A stretch of 43,627 nt of DNA from Armatimonadota bacterium (GTDB taxonomy: Bacteria; Sysuimicrobiota; Sysuimicrobiia; Sysuimicrobiales; Humicultoraceae): positions 25,267 through 68,893 of the forward strand of contig JAVKIA010000012.1 in the NCBI GenBank assembly GCA_031459715.1, read 5' to 3'. Below the pieces are notes generated by a model that had not been told where the DNA came from, made no database searches, and saw only the letters and a list, made by a program, of their open reading frames with translations. Positions 1,917 to 27,196 of the stretch are shown here, piece after piece (the first letter of the stretch is position 1; every line of letters starts with the position of its first letter). A program made the translations under genes and the position numbers.

Positions 1917-2639
1917 GTGCTGGAGACGCAGAATCTGACCAAGAGCTTCGGCGGCATCCTGGCCCTGGACGGCCTCTCCCTTACCGTCCCCGCCGGAACT
2001 ATAGTCGGCCTGATCGGCCCCAACGGCAGTGGTAAGACCACCTTCTTTAACCTGGTCACCGGGGTCTATCCCCCGGACCGCGGCCTGGTGCGCTTCCGCG
2101 GTCGGCTCATCACCGGTCTGCGCCCGCACCGCATCGCCCGCCTGGGCATCGGCCGGACCTTCCAGATTCCCGCCCCCTTTGTCAAGATGACCGTCCTGGA
2201 CGACGTGGCGGTGGGGGCCTTCATCCATGCGGGGACCATGGCCGCAGCCCGGCGCGCTGCCATGGAGATCCTGGAATTCGTCGGGCTGGCGGGAAAGGCC
2301 CGGGAGCTGGTCAGCCAGGTGACGCTGGAAGACCGGAAACGGCTGGAGCTGGCGCGCGCCCTGGCCACGCGGCCGGAGCTGCTGCTGCTGGATGAGGTCA
2401 TGGCCGGGCTGAACCCCACCGAGGTGCGCGCGGCGGTGGAGCTGATCAGGGCCATCCGCGCCCGTGGCATCACCATCGTAGTGGTGGAGCACGTCATGGA
2501 CGCCATCCTGTCCCTGTGCGAGCGCATCGTGGTCCTGGACCAGGGGCGGAAGATCGCCGAGGACGTCCCGGAGCGGATCGTCACCGACGAGGCGGTCATC
2601 CGCGCCTACCTGGGGGAGCGGCGCCGTGCTGCGCATTGA
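1917..2639 (+). CDS. livG: Branched-chain amino acid ABC transporter ATP-binding protein, LivG family
   Basis: This cytoplasmic ATPase energises the LivHM channel. The Walker A motif GPNGSGKT is at residues 34-41, Walker B ends at D159/E160, and the switch histidine is H192. The ABC signature is not LSGGQ but a TLEDRKRLELARA segment at residues 137-149, a variant found in many LivG proteins. At 240 residues it is slightly short for LivG (about 250-260). GTG start; the GAGGTGG site overlaps the end of livM. Its last 14 bases overlap livF. Confidence 0.92.
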   Translation: MLETQNLTKSFGGILALDGLSLTVPAGTIVGLIGPNGSGKTTFFNLVTGVYPPDRGLVRFRGRLITGLRPHRIARLGIGRTFQIPAPFVKMTVLDDVAVGAFIHAGTMAAARRAAMEILEFVGLAGKARELVSQVTLEDRKRLELARALATRPELLLLDEVMAGLNPTEVRAAVELIRAIRARGITIVVVEHVMDAILSLCERIVVLDQGRKIAEDVPERIVTDEAVIRAYLGERRRAAH

Positions 2640-3330
2640 GGGTATAACCGTAGCCTACGGCCAGGTGGCCGCGCTGCGCGACGCCTCGCTGCTGGTATCC
2701 CCGGGAGAGATCGTGTCCATCATCGGCGCCAACGGCGCGGGAAAGACCACGCTGCTACGCACCATCTCAGGCCTGCTCCACCCGCTGTCCGGCACCATCC
2801 ACTTCCAGACTACGCGCATCGACCGGATGGAACCGCACCAGATCGCCCGGCTGGGTATCGCCCACGTGCCTGAGGGGCGGCGCATCTTCCCCTACCTGAG
2901 CGTGCAGGAAAACCTGTGGATGGGCGGGCTGCAGATCAGGGAGCGAACTCAGATCGAGGCCCGCCTGGAGGAGGTCTTCGACCTGTTCCCCGTGCTGGCG
3001 CAGCGTCGCCGTCAGGCGGGGGGGACGCTCTCCGGCGGGGAGCAGCAGATGCTGGCCATCGCTCGGGCGCTGATGGCCGACCCCAGGCTGCTGCTGCTGG
3101 ATGAGCCGTCCCTGGGCCTGGGCCCCAAGGTCGTGGATGCCGTCTTCGACGTGATTGCCAAGCTCCACCAGCAGAGGCGCACCGTGCTGCTCGTGGAGCA
3201 GAACGCCTACCTCTCACTGGAGGTGGCGGATCGCGCCTACGTCCTGGAGACCGGACGCATTGTCCTGGAGGGAAGAGCGGCGGAGCTGATGGACCACCCT
3301 CATGTCAGGCGTGCCTATCTGGGCCGCTGA
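2626..3330 (+). CDS. livF: Branched-chain amino acid ABC transporter ATP-binding protein, LivF family
   Basis: This is the second ATPase of the HAAT transporter and probably pairs with LivG. Walker A GANGAGKT is at residues 34-41, the signature LSGGEQ at 135-140 and Walker B D159/E160. The LivF landmark VPEGRRIFPYLSVQENL is at residues 81-97. At 234 residues it is normal for LivF. The GTG start lies inside the end of livG (14-base overlap), which implies coupled translation. The next gene, an aminotransferase, starts 37 bases downstream on the same strand and is plausibly in the same transcript. Confidence 0.93.
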   Translation: MLRIEGITVAYGQVAALRDASLLVSPGEIVSIIGANGAGKTTLLRTISGLLHPLSGTIHFQTTRIDRMEPHQIARLGIAHVPEGRRIFPYLSVQENLWMGGLQIRERTQIEARLEEVFDLFPVLAQRRRQAGGTLSGGEQQMLAIARALMADPRLLLLDEPSLGLGPKVVDAVFDVIAKLHQQRRTVLLVEQNAYLSLEVADRAYVLETGRIVLEGRAAELMDHPHVRRAYLGR

Positions 3331-3367
3331 CGCCTCCGCGGCCGTCCTCCGGAGAAGGGAGGAGAGT

Positions 3368-4696
3368 ATGTCTCGCACCACAGTTGCCCTGCCCGGCCCC
3401 CGGGCCCAGGAGCTCCTGTCCCTGCGCCAGCAATACGTCCCCCGCGGGGTGGCCACCACCGTCCCCACGTTCGTGGTCGGAGCGGAGGGAGCCCGCCTGC
3501 GGGACGTGGATGGCAACGAGTTCATCGACTTCGCCGCCGGCATCGGCGTGGTCAACGTGGGGCACCGCCCCGCGCCGGTGGTGCAGGCGGTGCGCGAGCA
3601 GGTGGACCGCTTCCTGCACACCTGCGCCCATGTGGCCATGTACGAACCCTACCTGCGCCTGGCGGAGCGCCTGGCTGCGGTCACGCCCGGTGGCTGGGCG
3701 AAAAAGGTCCTCCTGGTGAACAGCGGGGCCGAAGCGGTGGAAAACGCCGTGAAGATCGCCCGCGCGACTACGGGGCGCCGCGCCGTGGTCTGCTTCGAGT
3801 ACGCCTTCCACGGACGAACGCTGCTGGCCCTCAGCCTGACCAGCAAGATCAAGCCCTACAAGTTCGGCTTCGGCCCCTTCGCTCCCGAGGTCTACCGGGC
3901 GCCCTACTCATACCCCTACCGCTGTCCGCGGGGCGGGGACCCCGCCGACTGCCCCATCTGCACCGGGCAGGCCCTGGAGGCGTTTCTGAAGACCCACGTG
4001 GACGCCGAGGAGGTGGCGGCGGTGGTGGTGGAGCCTGTGGCCGGCGAGGGCGGCTTCGTGGTGCCGCACCCGAAGTTCCTGCCCACCGTGGCGGAGGTCT
4101 GCCGCCGACACGGCATCCTCCTCATCGCCGATGAGATCCAGACCGGATTTGGCCGTACCGGGCGGCTCTTCGCCGTCGAGCATGCGGGCGTCGCTCCCGA
4201 CCTGCTGATCCTCTCCAAGTCGCTGGCCGCCGGCCTGCCCCTGGCGGCGGTGGTGGGGCGGGCGGAGGTGATGGACGCACCGGGGGTGGGGGGCCTGGGA
4301 GGGACGTTTGGCGGTAACCCCGTAAGCTGTGCGGCGGCGCTGGCCGTGCTGGACCTGGTGACCGATCCCGCGTTCCTGGAGCGGGCCGGCCACGTGGGCG
4401 CCGCCATCCGGGGCCGCCTGGGCCTGATGGCCGAACGCTACCCGCTGGTGGGAGAGGCCCGGGGCCTGGGAGCCATGGCGGCGTTGGAGCTGGTCCGGGA
4501 CCGTGCCACCAAGGAGCCGGCCGTCGAGGAGACCACAGCGGTGCTGCACGGCTGCCACGAGCGCGGCCTGTTCGTCCTCAAGGCCGGCGTTTACGACAAC
4601 GTGGTCCGCCTCCTGCCCCCGTTGACCATCAGCGACGAGGAGCTGGAGACCGGACTGCAGATCCTGGAGGAAGCACTGGCGGCCGCGGCCGCCTGA
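3368..4696 (+). CDS. Class III PLP-dependent aminotransferase (4-aminobutyrate aminotransferase-like)
   Basis: This enzyme would transfer the omega-amino group of a substrate such as 4-aminobutyrate to a keto acid using pyridoxal phosphate. The expected Schiff-base lysine is K284 in LILSKSLAAGLP, preceded by the cofactor-binding D255/E256 in LIADEIQTGFGR. The glycine-rich site VNSGAEAVENAVK is near residues 117-129. A cysteine cluster (C186, C195, C198) matches the GabT-like branch. The reading frame opens at 3302, but ATG 3368 follows GGAGAAGGGAGGAGAG, so the product is taken as 442 residues. Its position just after livHMGF suggests that the transporter imports this enzyme's amino-acid substrate. 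Exact substrate unknown; ornithine- or beta-alanine-type aminotransferases are alternatives. Confidence 0.88.
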   Translation: MSRTTVALPGPRAQELLSLRQQYVPRGVATTVPTFVVGAEGARLRDVDGNEFIDFAAGIGVVNVGHRPAPVVQAVREQVDRFLHTCAHVAMYEPYLRLAERLAAVTPGGWAKKVLLVNSGAEAVENAVKIARATTGRRAVVCFEYAFHGRTLLALSLTSKIKPYKFGFGPFAPEVYRAPYSYPYRCPRGGDPADCPICTGQALEAFLKTHVDAEEVAAVVVEPVAGEGGFVVPHPKFLPTVAEVCRRHGILLIADEIQTGFGRTGRLFAVEHAGVAPDLLILSKSLAAGLPLAAVVGRAEVMDAPGVGGLGGTFGGNPVSCAAALAVLDLVTDPAFLERAGHVGAAIRGRLGLMAERYPLVGEARGLGAMAALELVRDRATKEPAVEETTAVLHGCHERGLFVLKAGVYDNVVRLLPPLTISDEELETGLQILEEALAAAAA

Positions 4697-4702
4697 GCGG
4701 GC

Positions 4703-4876
4703 TCAGTCGCCCGTCTCGCGCATGAACCGCTGCAGGGCCTCCAGCAGCGCCTGCAGGTGCTTGACCACGTCCTTGGTGCTGGGGTACTCTCCCAGCCCCT
4801 TCAAATCGTTGGCGATGCGCGCCAGGTCTCGCTGGCATGCCGCTGCGGCATCGCGCACGGCCAGCCTCGCACGCAT
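4703..4876 (-). CDS. Small hypothetical protein, 57 residues
   Basis: I do not recognise this protein. The frame extends upstream to 4972, but ATG 4876 has a good ribosome site (GAAGGGGGTGAC) just before it, giving 57 residues. The sequence is charged and predicted mostly helical, with a heptad-like run (VVKHLQALLEALQRFM, residues 38-53) that could form a short coiled coil. There is no signal peptide or membrane segment. It ends six bases from the stop of the aminotransferase and converges on it. About 60 bases upstream on its own strand is a TACAGTATAT stretch that could be a -10 region. The strong Shine-Dalgarno and the amphipathic C-terminus favour a real gene. Confidence 0.6.
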   Translation of the reverse strand: MRARLAVRDAAAACQRDLARIANDLKGLGEYPSTKDVVKHLQALLEALQRFMRETGD

Positions 4877-4988
4877 ACCGTCACCCCCTTCACCGTCTGC
4901 CGCGCCATCGGCGGTAAATGGGGCTCTCGCCCACCCATATACTGTATCGGCGGTGTCGCGGACGCGCAACACGCACGACGCACGGCGC

Positions 4989-6410
4989 TCACAGCCTGCC
5001 CACGCGGCGGAGCCGGTATCGCTCGTAGATCAGGTCCACCTCCCCTTCTCGCCGCGTGAACTCCACGGGCAGCCAGCGCGCCGCCGCCAGGGTGACGAAT
5101 CGGGGGCGCTGCGGGTCCAGGCCCGCCGCATCGTAACCCTGGGGGACCAGCAGCGCCGCCTGCTCCTGCGGGCCATCCTGCATCTCCAGCACCAGGTAGT
5201 CGCCACGGCGAACCACCGTGGCGCGCATCGTCCCGCGGTAGGTCTCGTAGACGCCGGTCAGCCCGTCCAGCAGGCGCTCCGCACGCAGGGCGGGCACGCT
5301 CCAGGGATCCGCGCCCAGGAGCAGGGCCAGGGCGAAGGCGCCCATCTGGTTCAGGGGGTAGCCGCTCCCGTTGGCCAGCAGGGCCACACCCACCCCGCGT
5401 TGCGGGACGAACCCGACATAAGCCGTAAAGACCAGCACGCTGCCACCGTGCCCCACCAGCGTCTCCCCGAGGAAGTCCGGGGTGACCTGCAGACCGTAGC
5501 CGTAGAAAACCGCGGGCTCGGGCCCCAACAGACCGCGCCGCCAGAAGGGGATGGGAACGCGGGGTTGCCACATGCCGCACAACATGTCGGGAGGCAGCAG
5601 GGCCACGCCGGGCCCACGGCCCCCGGCCAGGAACATGGCCACGTACCGCGCCAGGTCCGCGGCGCAGGAGATCAGCCCGCCGTCCGCCTGGATGCCCCCG
5701 AAGAGGTAGGCACTGCGGGTGCGCCGCTTCTCCCGGTCGATCACGTAGGGGATGGCGGCATCGGGATCGCCCTGGACATCGTCGGGGCGAAAACCGCTGC
5801 GCGTCATCCCCAGGGGCTGCAGGATGTGCTGGCGGACGTAGTCGGGGTAGGGCTGCCCGGAGACCCGCTCGATGACCGCCCCCAGCAGGACATAGCCTTC
5901 GTTGAGGTAGAACCAGCGCTCTCCGGGCGAGGCGACGAGCCAGGGCTGTGCCTGGTCGAGGAAGGCCAGCATGTCCTCGATGCCGCTGATGGGGAACCAG
6001 CGCTGGGAGGTGCCGACGTGGTGGCGGATGGTGGCTTCGGCGTAGCCCAGCGCCGGCAGGCCGGAAGTGTGCGCCATCAGGTGCCGCAGGCGGATCGGCT
6101 CCTCCCCAGGCGGGCGGACAGGGAGGGGGAGGTAGCGGTCCACGGGGTCCTCGAGGTCCAGCAGGCCGCGCTCCTGGAGCTGCAGCAACGCCAGGCAGGT
6201 GAGGGACTTGGTCACGCTGCCGACACCAAAGAGGGTCTGCGGGGTAACAGGCAGCCCGCGCTCCAGATCACGGAAGCCGAAGCCGCGGCTCCACACCACT
6301 TCCCCCTTGCGAACGAGGGCCAGGCTGAGGCCTGGGAGGCCGGTCTCGCCCATCTTCTCCTGGACGAAGTGCTCCAGCGGTGCCAAGGAGTCAGTCATCG
6401 GCATGACCAT
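4989..6410 (-). CDS. Serine hydrolase of the class C beta-lactamase / D-aminopeptidase family
   Basis: The protein belongs to the beta-lactamase-like serine hydrolases (Pfam Beta-lactamase), which include esterases, D-aminopeptidases and penicillin-binding-type enzymes. The catalytic SxxK is S65-V-T-K68, the YxN motif is Y168-L-N170, and a GHGGS triad segment lies near residue 315. The last 100 or so residues form a beta-rich tail as in long family members. The open frame runs on to 7022, but that extension is arginine/proline-rich antisense of the GNAT gene. The start at 6410 (473 residues) is a best guess; ATGs at 6404 and 6398 are also possible and no ribosome site is well placed. No signal peptide is seen, so it may be cytoplasmic. 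True beta-lactamase activity is not implied. Confidence 0.88.
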   Translation of the reverse strand: MVMPMTDSLAPLEHFVQEKMGETGLPGLSLALVRKGEVVWSRGFGFRDLERGLPVTPQTLFGVGSVTKSLTCLALLQLQERGLLDLEDPVDRYLPLPVRPPGEEPIRLRHLMAHTSGLPALGYAEATIRHHVGTSQRWFPISGIEDMLAFLDQAQPWLVASPGERWFYLNEGYVLLGAVIERVSGQPYPDYVRQHILQPLGMTRSGFRPDDVQGDPDAAIPYVIDREKRRTRSAYLFGGIQADGGLISCAADLARYVAMFLAGGRGPGVALLPPDMLCGMWQPRVPIPFWRRGLLGPEPAVFYGYGLQVTPDFLGETLVGHGGSVLVFTAYVGFVPQRGVGVALLANGSGYPLNQMGAFALALLLGADPWSVPALRAERLLDGLTGVYETYRGTMRATVVRRGDYLVLEMQDGPQEQAALLVPQGYDAAGLDPQRPRFVTLAAARWLPVEFTRREGEVDLIYERYRLRRVGRL

Positions 6411-24149: not shown

Positions 24150-24159
24150 CGTCTTCCCC

Positions 24160-24525
24160 TCAGGCGGCTTCCACCCGGATGTGCGTGACCTGCTCTGTCC
24201 CCGCCTTGGGCATGCAGACCTCCAGCACCCCGTCGCGGTACCTGGCCCGCGCCTGACCCGGCGCCACCGGCAGCGGCAGGGGGATGATCCTTCGCCGCCC
24301 ACCGGCGGCGAGGGTGAGGGTCTGTGCGCTCAGGCTGACCTCGATGCGGTCGGGATCGGCGTCAGGCAGTTCGGCGCGCAGGACCAGCATGGTCTCCGTC
24401 TCCCACATCACCGGCGCGTCGCGGAAGAGTGGCGGCCGGCAGCTGTAGACCTCCTCGAAGAGGTGCTCCATGGACTCGCGCAACGTGATCAATTCGTCCA
24501 GGACATCCCACCGCCCGGGACGCAT
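24160..24525 (-). CDS. Small heat-shock protein, Hsp20/alpha-crystallin family
   Basis: An ATP-independent holdase chaperone. The 121-residue product has a short N-terminal arm with a helix (ELITLRESMEHLFEEVY) and an alpha-crystallin domain. The domain runs from about residue 40 (WETETMLVLRAELPDADPDRIEVS) to the GVLEVCMPKAG motif near 98-108. The C-terminal HIRVEAA resembles a shortened I-x-I/V tail. ATG 24525 follows AGGAGG at six bases; the frame upstream to 24747 is not used. It precedes deoC by ten bases, an unusual pairing. Confidence 0.9.
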   Translation of the reverse strand: MRPGRWDVLDELITLRESMEHLFEEVYSCRPPLFRDAPVMWETETMLVLRAELPDADPDRIEVSLSAQTLTLAAGGRRRIIPLPLPVAPGQARARYRDGVLEVCMPKAGTEQVTHIRVEAA

Positions 24526-24679: not shown

Positions 24680-25274
24680 CTTGACCACGGCCCCGCCGCC
24701 TCGGTCATCGGCTTCCTGGGCAACGAGGGAGTGGCGATCTTTCGCATTCGGGTGGGGCGGGAGATCGGCAGCGCGGCGCTGGTCGCCGACGGCTACCACG
24801 CGCGGGTGGACGGCTGGACGAGCCTGGCCGTGCTCGCGGGGGCGGTGGGAGTCTGGCTGGGCTACCCGCTGGCCGACTCGTTCGCCGGGCTGGGCATCAC
24901 CGCAGCCATCCTGGTCATCGTGTGGCAGTCGGGGAAGGCGGTCTTTACCCGGATCCTGGACGGGGTGGAGCCCGAGGTCATCGAGGCACTGGTCCACGCC
25001 GCTGGGCACGTGCCCGGGGTGCAGGGGGTCACCGACGTGCGTGCCCGCTGGATCGGCCACTACCTGGAGGCAGAGTTGAATGTTGCCGTGCCCGCCACGC
25101 ACTCGGTGGCCGAAGGGCACCGTATCGCCAGGGAGGTCCACCACCAGCTCCTGCACCACGTCCCCTACCTAAAGTCGGGCCACCATCCACGTCGATCCTG
25201 CCGGTGAGTTCGGAGAGACCCACCACCGGATCTCCGCTCACACGCACGACGGGCTGCCGGTGCACTCCCACTAG
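24680..25274 (+). pseudogene. Broken CDF-family metal efflux gene (front third lost, frameshift near the end)
   Basis: From about 24695 the frame reads as the second half of a cation diffusion facilitator: VIGFLGNEGVAIFRIRVG, then SAALVADGYHARVDGWTSLA with the HxxxD-type metal residues. Two further membrane helices follow, then the cytoplasmic domain with VRARWIGHYLEAELNV and HHQLLHHVPYL. The first three membrane helices are missing upstream and no start fits. Near 25172-25181 the frame shifts by one: the family ending AtIHVDP resumes in the +1 frame (ATIHVDPAGEFGE) and runs to the stop at 25272-25274. Intact members have about 300 residues and need six helices, so this copy should not function. 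Confidence 0.85.
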
Positions 25275-25402
25275 GGCCCCTCAGTTGCGCCCCATTGCTC
25301 GATATGGACCGACCGTCCGTAGTGCAGGGCTCCGCCGGCCTCCACCATCTCCAGATAGAAGGTAGCCAGCAGCAGGATGGCGACTTCGTTAACAGGCGTC
25401 AT
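25271..25402 (-). CDS. Small ORF of 43 residues after a broken permease gene
   Basis: ATG 25402 follows GGAGGGACGATCGCC, a fair ribosome site, and encodes 43 residues with a hydrophobic N-terminal half (NEVAILLLATFYLEMVEAGG) and a polar tail. It is the only candidate gene in the 25275-25430 gap. Its stop shares the CTAG tetramer with the end of the CDF pseudogene on the other strand. It lies 28 bases downstream of the frameshifted DppC gene and could be the start of a gene cut off by the same deletions, or a small membrane protein. I do not recognise it. Confidence 0.4.
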   Translation of the reverse strand: MTPVNEVAILLLATFYLEMVEAGGALHYGRSVHIEQWGATEGP

Positions 25403-25430: not shown

Positions 25431-26310
25431 CTACCGCATGGCTCGCAGGCGGGGATTGAGGACCTCTTCCAGGGCGAAGCCGGTGAAGGCGAAGCCCAGG
25501 ACGGCCAGGGTGATGAGCAGCCCCGGCGGGAAAACCCACCAGAGCCAGGCGCCGCTGAGGAAGGCGCTGCGCACCTGCGCGTAGTACAGGATCGAGCCCC
25601 ACGACTTTGCCGTGGGATCTCCCAGGCCCAGGAAGGAGAGCGAGGCTTCAATCAGGATGGCGTTGCTGGCCGCCAGGATGAACTGCGCCAGGGAGAGCGA
25701 GAGTACCCCCGGCAGGACTTGCCGCCGGAGGATGCGGCCGGCGGAGGCGCCCACCGCCCGCGCCGCGTCCACGTAGTCCAGCGAGCGCAGCGACACCACC
25801 TGCGCCCGCACCACCCGGGGCCGGCCGCGCCCACACCAGCAGGCCGATGACCAGGATGATGTTCCAGAAAGCCGGTCCGGCATACGCAGCCCGCAGGATC
25901 ATCAGCGGGAGGAAGGGGATCACCAGGACCACGTCCACGACCCGCATAAGGGCCACGTCCAGCCAGCCGCCGAAGTACCCGGCCACCGTGCCCACCGCAG
26001 TCCCGATGCCGACGGCCACCAGGGCGGCGAGGAACCCGATCACCAGGGAGATGCGCGCGCCGAAGACAAGTTCGCTGAGAATGTCCTGCCCGATGTCGTT
26101 GGTGCCCAGGGGGTGGCTGCGCGAGGGGGCCTCGAAAGGCCCGCCGCTGGTCTCCTCAGGATTATAGGGGGCGATCCACGGCGCGAAGACGGCGGCCACG
26201 GCCAGCAGGGCGAGCAGCGCCAGCCCCGCCCCTCCCACCGCCCCCAGAGGGCGGCGGGGCCGGAGGCGCACGGGACCGGCGCCGGCGGCCACGGCGGTGG
26301 CGGTGCTCAT
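25431..26310 (-). pseudogene. Frameshifted DppC-family permease
   Basis: The N-terminal part (from ATG 26310) is a normal OppC/DppC start: a membrane helix, APWIAPYNPEETSG, then HPLGTNDIGQDILSELVFGARIS, reaching VIGLLVWARP near residue 160. Then the frame leaves the family and the continuation is found one base over: RVVRAQVVSLRSLDYVDAARAVGAS, LPGVLSLSLAQFILAASNAIL and the end EEVLNPRLRAMR, stopping at 25431. The break is in a GC-rich stretch around 25815-25830, so a sequencing or assembly error is possible. Together the two parts account for a full-length permease of about 290 residues. It is downstream of the binding-protein/permease chimera on the same strand. Confidence 0.85.
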
Positions 26311-26334: not shown

Positions 26335-27051
26335 TCAGGCATGGCGCACCCGGGGGTCGATCAGGGGGTAGAGCAGGTCGGCCAGCACGTTGGCAGCGAT
26401 GACGCTCACGGTGAGGATAAGGAAGGTGGCCTGGATCACCGGGTAGTCGCGGTTGAGCACTGCCTCGTAGAGGAGCCGGCCGAGTACCGGACAGGAGAAG
26501 ACCGTTTCTATCACTGTGGCGCCGCTGGCGATGAATCCCAGGTTGAGCATGAAGACGGTGGAGATCGGCAGCAGGGCGTCCGCCAGCGGGCGCAGGCGGA
26601 ACCCGGCGTGGGGAGCCTTCAGGCGAAAGACCACGGTCTGGGGATTGGGCGCGTCCACGCCCTCCAGGTTGCGCGTGGTCGGCGTCCAGCGCGAGTGGGT
26701 CACTTTCTGCACGTACTCAAAGGTGAACTTCACATCCTCCGACGTCAGCGCCCGGCCATCGTGCCAGCGTAGGTTTGGATGAAGGCTCAGTGTCCAGGTG
26801 CGCCCGTCGCCGGATACCCTGACTTCACGCACCAGCCAGGGGATGGGCTCGTTGTTGGCGTCGGGGTAGAAGAGGGGGTCGTAGACCAGCGTCATGATGT
26901 TCCAGCCGGGATAGCCGCTCTGGTAGGTATAGGGATTCAGGCTTCCCTCGTCCCGCGTGATGGCGAGGCGCACGATGCCGGTCTGTGCCAGACCTGCGGC
27001 CGGCAGGGTTACCAGTACGGGGACCAGGATCAGGGTTAGCCCAGCCCTCAT
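26335..27051 (-). pseudogene. In-frame chimera: front of a family-5 binding protein joined to the tail of a DppB permease
   Basis: Residues 1-23 are a signal peptide. Residues 24 to about 149 are the first lobe of a family-5 binding protein (RLAITRDEGSLNPY, TWTLSLHPNLRWHDGRALTS, NPQTVVFRLKAPHAGF). From about residue 158 the text is the end of a DppB permease: ALLPISTVFMLNLGFIASG, then ATVIETVFSCPVLGRLLYEA, RDYPVIQATFLILT and the terminal LADLLYPLIDPRVRHA. The switch lies between about 26570 and 26610. Roughly 350 residues of binding protein and 240 of permease are missing, so a deletion of about 1.8 kb would explain it. The ribosome site GGGAGGAACGAC and signal peptide are intact, so a 238-residue protein could be made. 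Loss of function is expected. Confidence 0.85.
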
Positions 27052-27196
27052 GTCGTTCCTCCCGGATCCGTACCAGCCTGACCCTGGAGAGACCGGCTCC
27101 GGAGCAGCCGGTGGAAGGACGTCTCCGTGATCAGATGGAAAGGTCTTCCGGACAGGGTCACGGGACGCTCGAGATTGGCGCGCCAAGGGAGTCGGG

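Follow-up and report, generated by a model that had tools for sequence, protein, structure and literature searches.

Fusions of substrate-binding and transmembrane domains occur naturally in type I ABC importers, i.e. GlnPQ and OpuA (PMC8025302, PMC11065425). They resemble the locus described here in that a substrate-binding domain and a permease are present in one polypeptide. However, their domains are complete (PMC8025302) and coupled to a partner ATPase, whereas at this locus neither partner is complete and the coupling loop has been lost. Domain order or family also differs, e.g. GlnP contains two substrate-binding domains of another class of binding proteins. A second point of comparison is provided by the wrinkly spreaders of Pseudomonas fluorescens, in which deletions between neighbouring genes gave rise to selected in-frame fusions (PMC4395868). 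An in-frame fusion via a deletion between neighbours is also found here, but the selected fusions retain a whole catalytic domain, while the present one does not contain any complete domain. The third comparable group comprises the chimeric pseudogenes generated by deletion in decaying bacterial operons. They share with this locus the adjacent genes, the single deletion with little shared sequence, the further disabling changes in neighbouring genes, and the intact orthologues in relatives. The difference is that the junction described here is in frame and the remnant resembles one open protein.

The window, i.e. the whole stretch of 43,627 nucleotides that was analysed, contains an open reading frame of 238 amino acids on the minus strand, with an ATG at 27051 and a stop codon at 26337-26335. 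It opens with a signal-peptide-like stretch. About 157 N-terminal residues (26580-27051, minus strand) are derived from a family-5 binding protein, and the last ~80 residues from a DppB-type permease, including its last two membrane helices (26335-26576, minus strand). Pfam searches yielded matches to SBP_bac_5 for residues 68-155 (profile positions 1-86 of 368, E = 4e-20) and to BPD_transp_1 for residues 159-237 (profile positions 106-184 of 184, E = 7e-15). Both are far above chance and bear out the description in an earlier note on this DNA, i.e. that one frame begins as a binding protein and ends as a DppB permease. The closest solved structures are oligopeptide/mannoside-type binding proteins for the first half and DppB for the second half. 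A sequence scan revealed a Shine-Dalgarno-like GGGAGG upstream of the ATG (27052-27066, minus strand), while a promoter scan found no sigma-70-like promoter near the frame, a result that is uninformative for this phylum. In the DppB part, alignment to relatives showed that the SYPG motif is altered at two residues that are invariant in the relatives, Tyr to Cys and Gly to Val, which is a weak sign of relaxation.

The closest relative in the comparison is Ca. Sysuimicrobiota CSP1-3 (contig LDXQ01000117, locus L021; "the sister" in the following). In the sister, the genes for the binding protein (1923-3524), dppB (3531-4502), and dppC (4506-5405) are all intact and follow one another. The window matches L021 at 1945-2403 (85% DNA identity in the binding-protein part) and then at 4258-5514, and the two matches overlap by 3 bp, an ACG common to both flanks, at window positions 26577-26579 on the minus strand. 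Therefore, the switch between the two genes lies within the range of 26570-26610 given in the earlier note. In comparison to the sister, 1857 bp are missing (L021:2404-4260), which corresponds to 619 codons. Because the binding protein and dppB share one frame in the sister, a loss of this size keeps the frame. The earlier proposal of an in-frame deletion of 1.8 kb is thus supported, and so is the assumption that the two genes are normally neighbours and that one deletion suffices.

The long spacing seen in the sister is also present in six further genomes (G032, G007, G002, G008, G009, and G010). Operon genes without internal stops were found in six relatives besides the sister (G011, G032, G007, G002, G009, and G013; the binding protein of G013 is matched only in part, and G011 has the binding protein at one contig end and dppB at another). 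Orthologous operons without internal stops occur at loci L021, L101, L103, L104, and L022, among others. The long spacing and the stop-free genes in the relatives show that the deletion is derived in the lineage of the window. The same junction is absent from ten operon-bearing relatives. A search across the order and the phylum (43 genomes), as suggested in the earlier note, retrieved the fused form from the window's genome alone and separate halves elsewhere. A search of the genome_contigs collection likewise yielded the halves only as separate sequences. Several complete genomes of the phylum do not contain the operon at all, which is consistent with a dispensable transporter. Separately, the sister apparently has two copies of dppC on two contigs (L021:4506-5405 and L106:2-832) with 91% protein identity, which are either paralogues or derived from mixed strains.

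The damage is not confined to the fusion. Directly downstream of it, dppC (25431-26310, minus strand) contains one extra C near 25820, a +1 frameshift that splits the gene over two frames, 26310-25648 for the 5′ part and 25883-25431 for the 3′ part. Disabling mutations are thus present in more than one operon gene, i.e. the 1857-bp deletion over two genes and the frameshift in dppC. Of the gene found next after dppC in relatives, a remnant is left at 25271-25402 (minus strand) with 43 codons before the stop, about 26 of them recognisable; compared with L106, it lacks ~657 bp. Its full-length versions in L106 (858-1610) and L107 encode ~250 amino acids and had no family match in a Pfam search. 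A convergent cation-efflux (CDF) gene (24694-25207, plus strand) has lost ~500 bp relative to L106 and with it the N-terminal half; what remains covers profile positions 108-194 of 198 as well as the dimerisation domain, and the orthologues in L106 and L107 are complete. The missing parts of these two genes were not found elsewhere in the window's genome. The frameshift and the two truncated genes had escaped the earlier note. Outside the broken block, the genes for a cation ATPase, MmgE/PrpD, AI-2E, an M3 peptidase, and deoC are uninterrupted and each matches its family in one frame; gauged from these five genes only, sequencing error is not rampant in the region. In the sister, a universal-stress-protein gene lies between an HSP20-like gene and deoC (L106:3299-3787), which is absent from the window at 24158-24164.

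Substitutions were counted at sites at which two outgroups agree, and the lineages of the window and of the sister were compared with a Fisher test. Nonsynonymous and synonymous changes number 31 and 41 in the window lineage versus 29 and 42 in the sister lineage (p = 0.87), and the result was the same with either dppC copy of the sister (L021 or L106) as the reference. Thus, the substitutions contain no signal of relaxed selection, including those in the dppC segment beyond the frameshift, which can no longer be read as dppC. The sequence within the fusion is conserved to the same degree as that outside it, which indicates that the damage is recent, and not that selection acts on the fusion. 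As dppC behind the frameshift is equally conserved, a low dN/dS cannot be taken as evidence that the fusion was selected. It also follows that the case for lost selection is made solely by the disabling mutations.

A second instance of decay was found in a genome of another genus and family, G020. At L102:3527-4472 (G020:C3), residues 22-76 of the binding protein are joined to residues 97-138 of DppB and then to DppC in one frame, and a frameshift of 1 nt in dppC follows the joined stretch. In comparison to its congener G032, the two deletions amount to ~1.7 kb and ~0.8 kb. As the breakpoints are not those of the window, the loss was independent. The frame is kept at the window junction and at both G020 junctions, for which the probability by chance is ~1/27; this speaks against an accidental join but is too weak a basis for conclusions. 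The fact that two genera have each lost this operon suggests that the peptide importer is dispensable in Sysuimicrobiota.

We interpret the locus as the result of recent decay of a peptide/oligopeptide ABC-importer operon (binding protein, dppB, and dppC), with an accidental in-frame join, and estimate the probability of this interpretation at roughly 0.86. Selection on an accessory transporter would have been lost, followed by deletion-biased decay; the window's genome has 25 SBP_bac_5 matches. One deletion of ~1.86 kb, joined at ~3 bp of shared sequence, would have extended over the final ~70% of the binding-protein gene and the initial ~75% of dppB, and the frame would have been preserved by chance (1 in 3). 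The +1 frameshift in dppC, the truncation of the next gene, and the loss of the N-terminal half of the convergent cation-efflux gene would represent separate changes. Translation of the frame, if it takes place, would yield an exported fragment without substrate binding or ATPase coupling that is probably degraded. Decay had been one of the readings offered in the earlier note, and it gains support from the frameshifted dppC, the truncated neighbours, and the restriction of the junction to this genome among the 43 of the phylum.

An alternative is that the operon is intact in the organism or in most of its population, the consensus having been drawn from a chimeric read or from a deletion strain. 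According to a review, the phylum was uncultivated at the time (PMC11604079), so that the genome was probably assembled from a metagenome. The substitutions without a sign of relaxed selection and the clustering of several deletions within 3.5 kb would also fit. However, an overlap of 3 bp would be too short for a k-mer misjoin, and the frameshift in dppC and the two further truncations would require separate errors, while the genes nearby are intact. A strain variant left unresolved by the assembly was tested for by searching the window's genome for the deleted 1857 bp, and nothing was found in it beyond a 105-bp stretch at 77%. The same operon has also decayed independently in G020. We regard an assembly artefact or a minority variant as unlikely.

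The other alternative is a functional new protein, i.e. an exported fragment of a binding protein on two permease helices with a role in sensing, scavenging, or dominant regulation. In favour of this, the open frame has both a signal peptide and a Shine-Dalgarno-like site, the fused halves remain conserved, these genes are also fused in frame in the unrelated genome G020, and beneficial fusions of neighbouring genes by deletion are known from experimental evolution (PMC4395868). If functional, the fusion would represent a new way of tethering a binding-protein fragment to the membrane. Against this, the pieces outside the fusion, including dppC behind the frameshift, are equally conserved, and none of the other genomes among the 43 of the phylum has kept the junction. 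The fused frame does not contain a complete substrate-binding domain; the SBP_bac_5 match ends at profile position 86 of 368, and the second lobe is among the ~70% of the binding protein that is gone. The EAA-type cytoplasmic loop of ABC-importer permeases contacts the ATPase. In DppB it lies in the stretch preceding ALLP, and this stretch was lost through the deletion, leaving profile positions 106-184 of BPD_transp_1. According to the known topology of DppB, the segment that precedes the retained helices lies in the cytoplasm. In the fusion these helices follow an exported segment and would need to be inserted in the reversed orientation. The AlphaFold model of the fused frame is poor, with a mean pLDDT of 57 and a pTM of 0.43 from a shallow alignment of 14 sequences, and its low confidence means that it was not taken as evidence for a fold.

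Therefore, a functional new protein appears very improbable, and we give almost no credence to the more specific view that the fusion is expressed and useful as a membrane-anchored fragment and that selection for such stubs also explains the parallel fusion in G020. The "stable exported first lobe" of the earlier note is not supported, as only part of the binding protein is left, the coupling loop is missing, the neighbours are broken, and the junction occurs in no other genome searched. For its "new membrane-anchored sensor" no positive support was obtained, both partners being truncated, the neighbours broken, and the junction absent from the other genomes among the 43 of the phylum.

Under the interpretation as recent decay, the locus is of little importance beyond annotation. 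Automated annotation would call the 238 amino acids a "binding protein" or a "permease", leading to wrong transporter counts for the lineage. Another SBP_bac_5 gene of the window's genome (G000:C3:95248-96771) appears in two pieces with an internal TGA and is likely a second binding-protein pseudogene.
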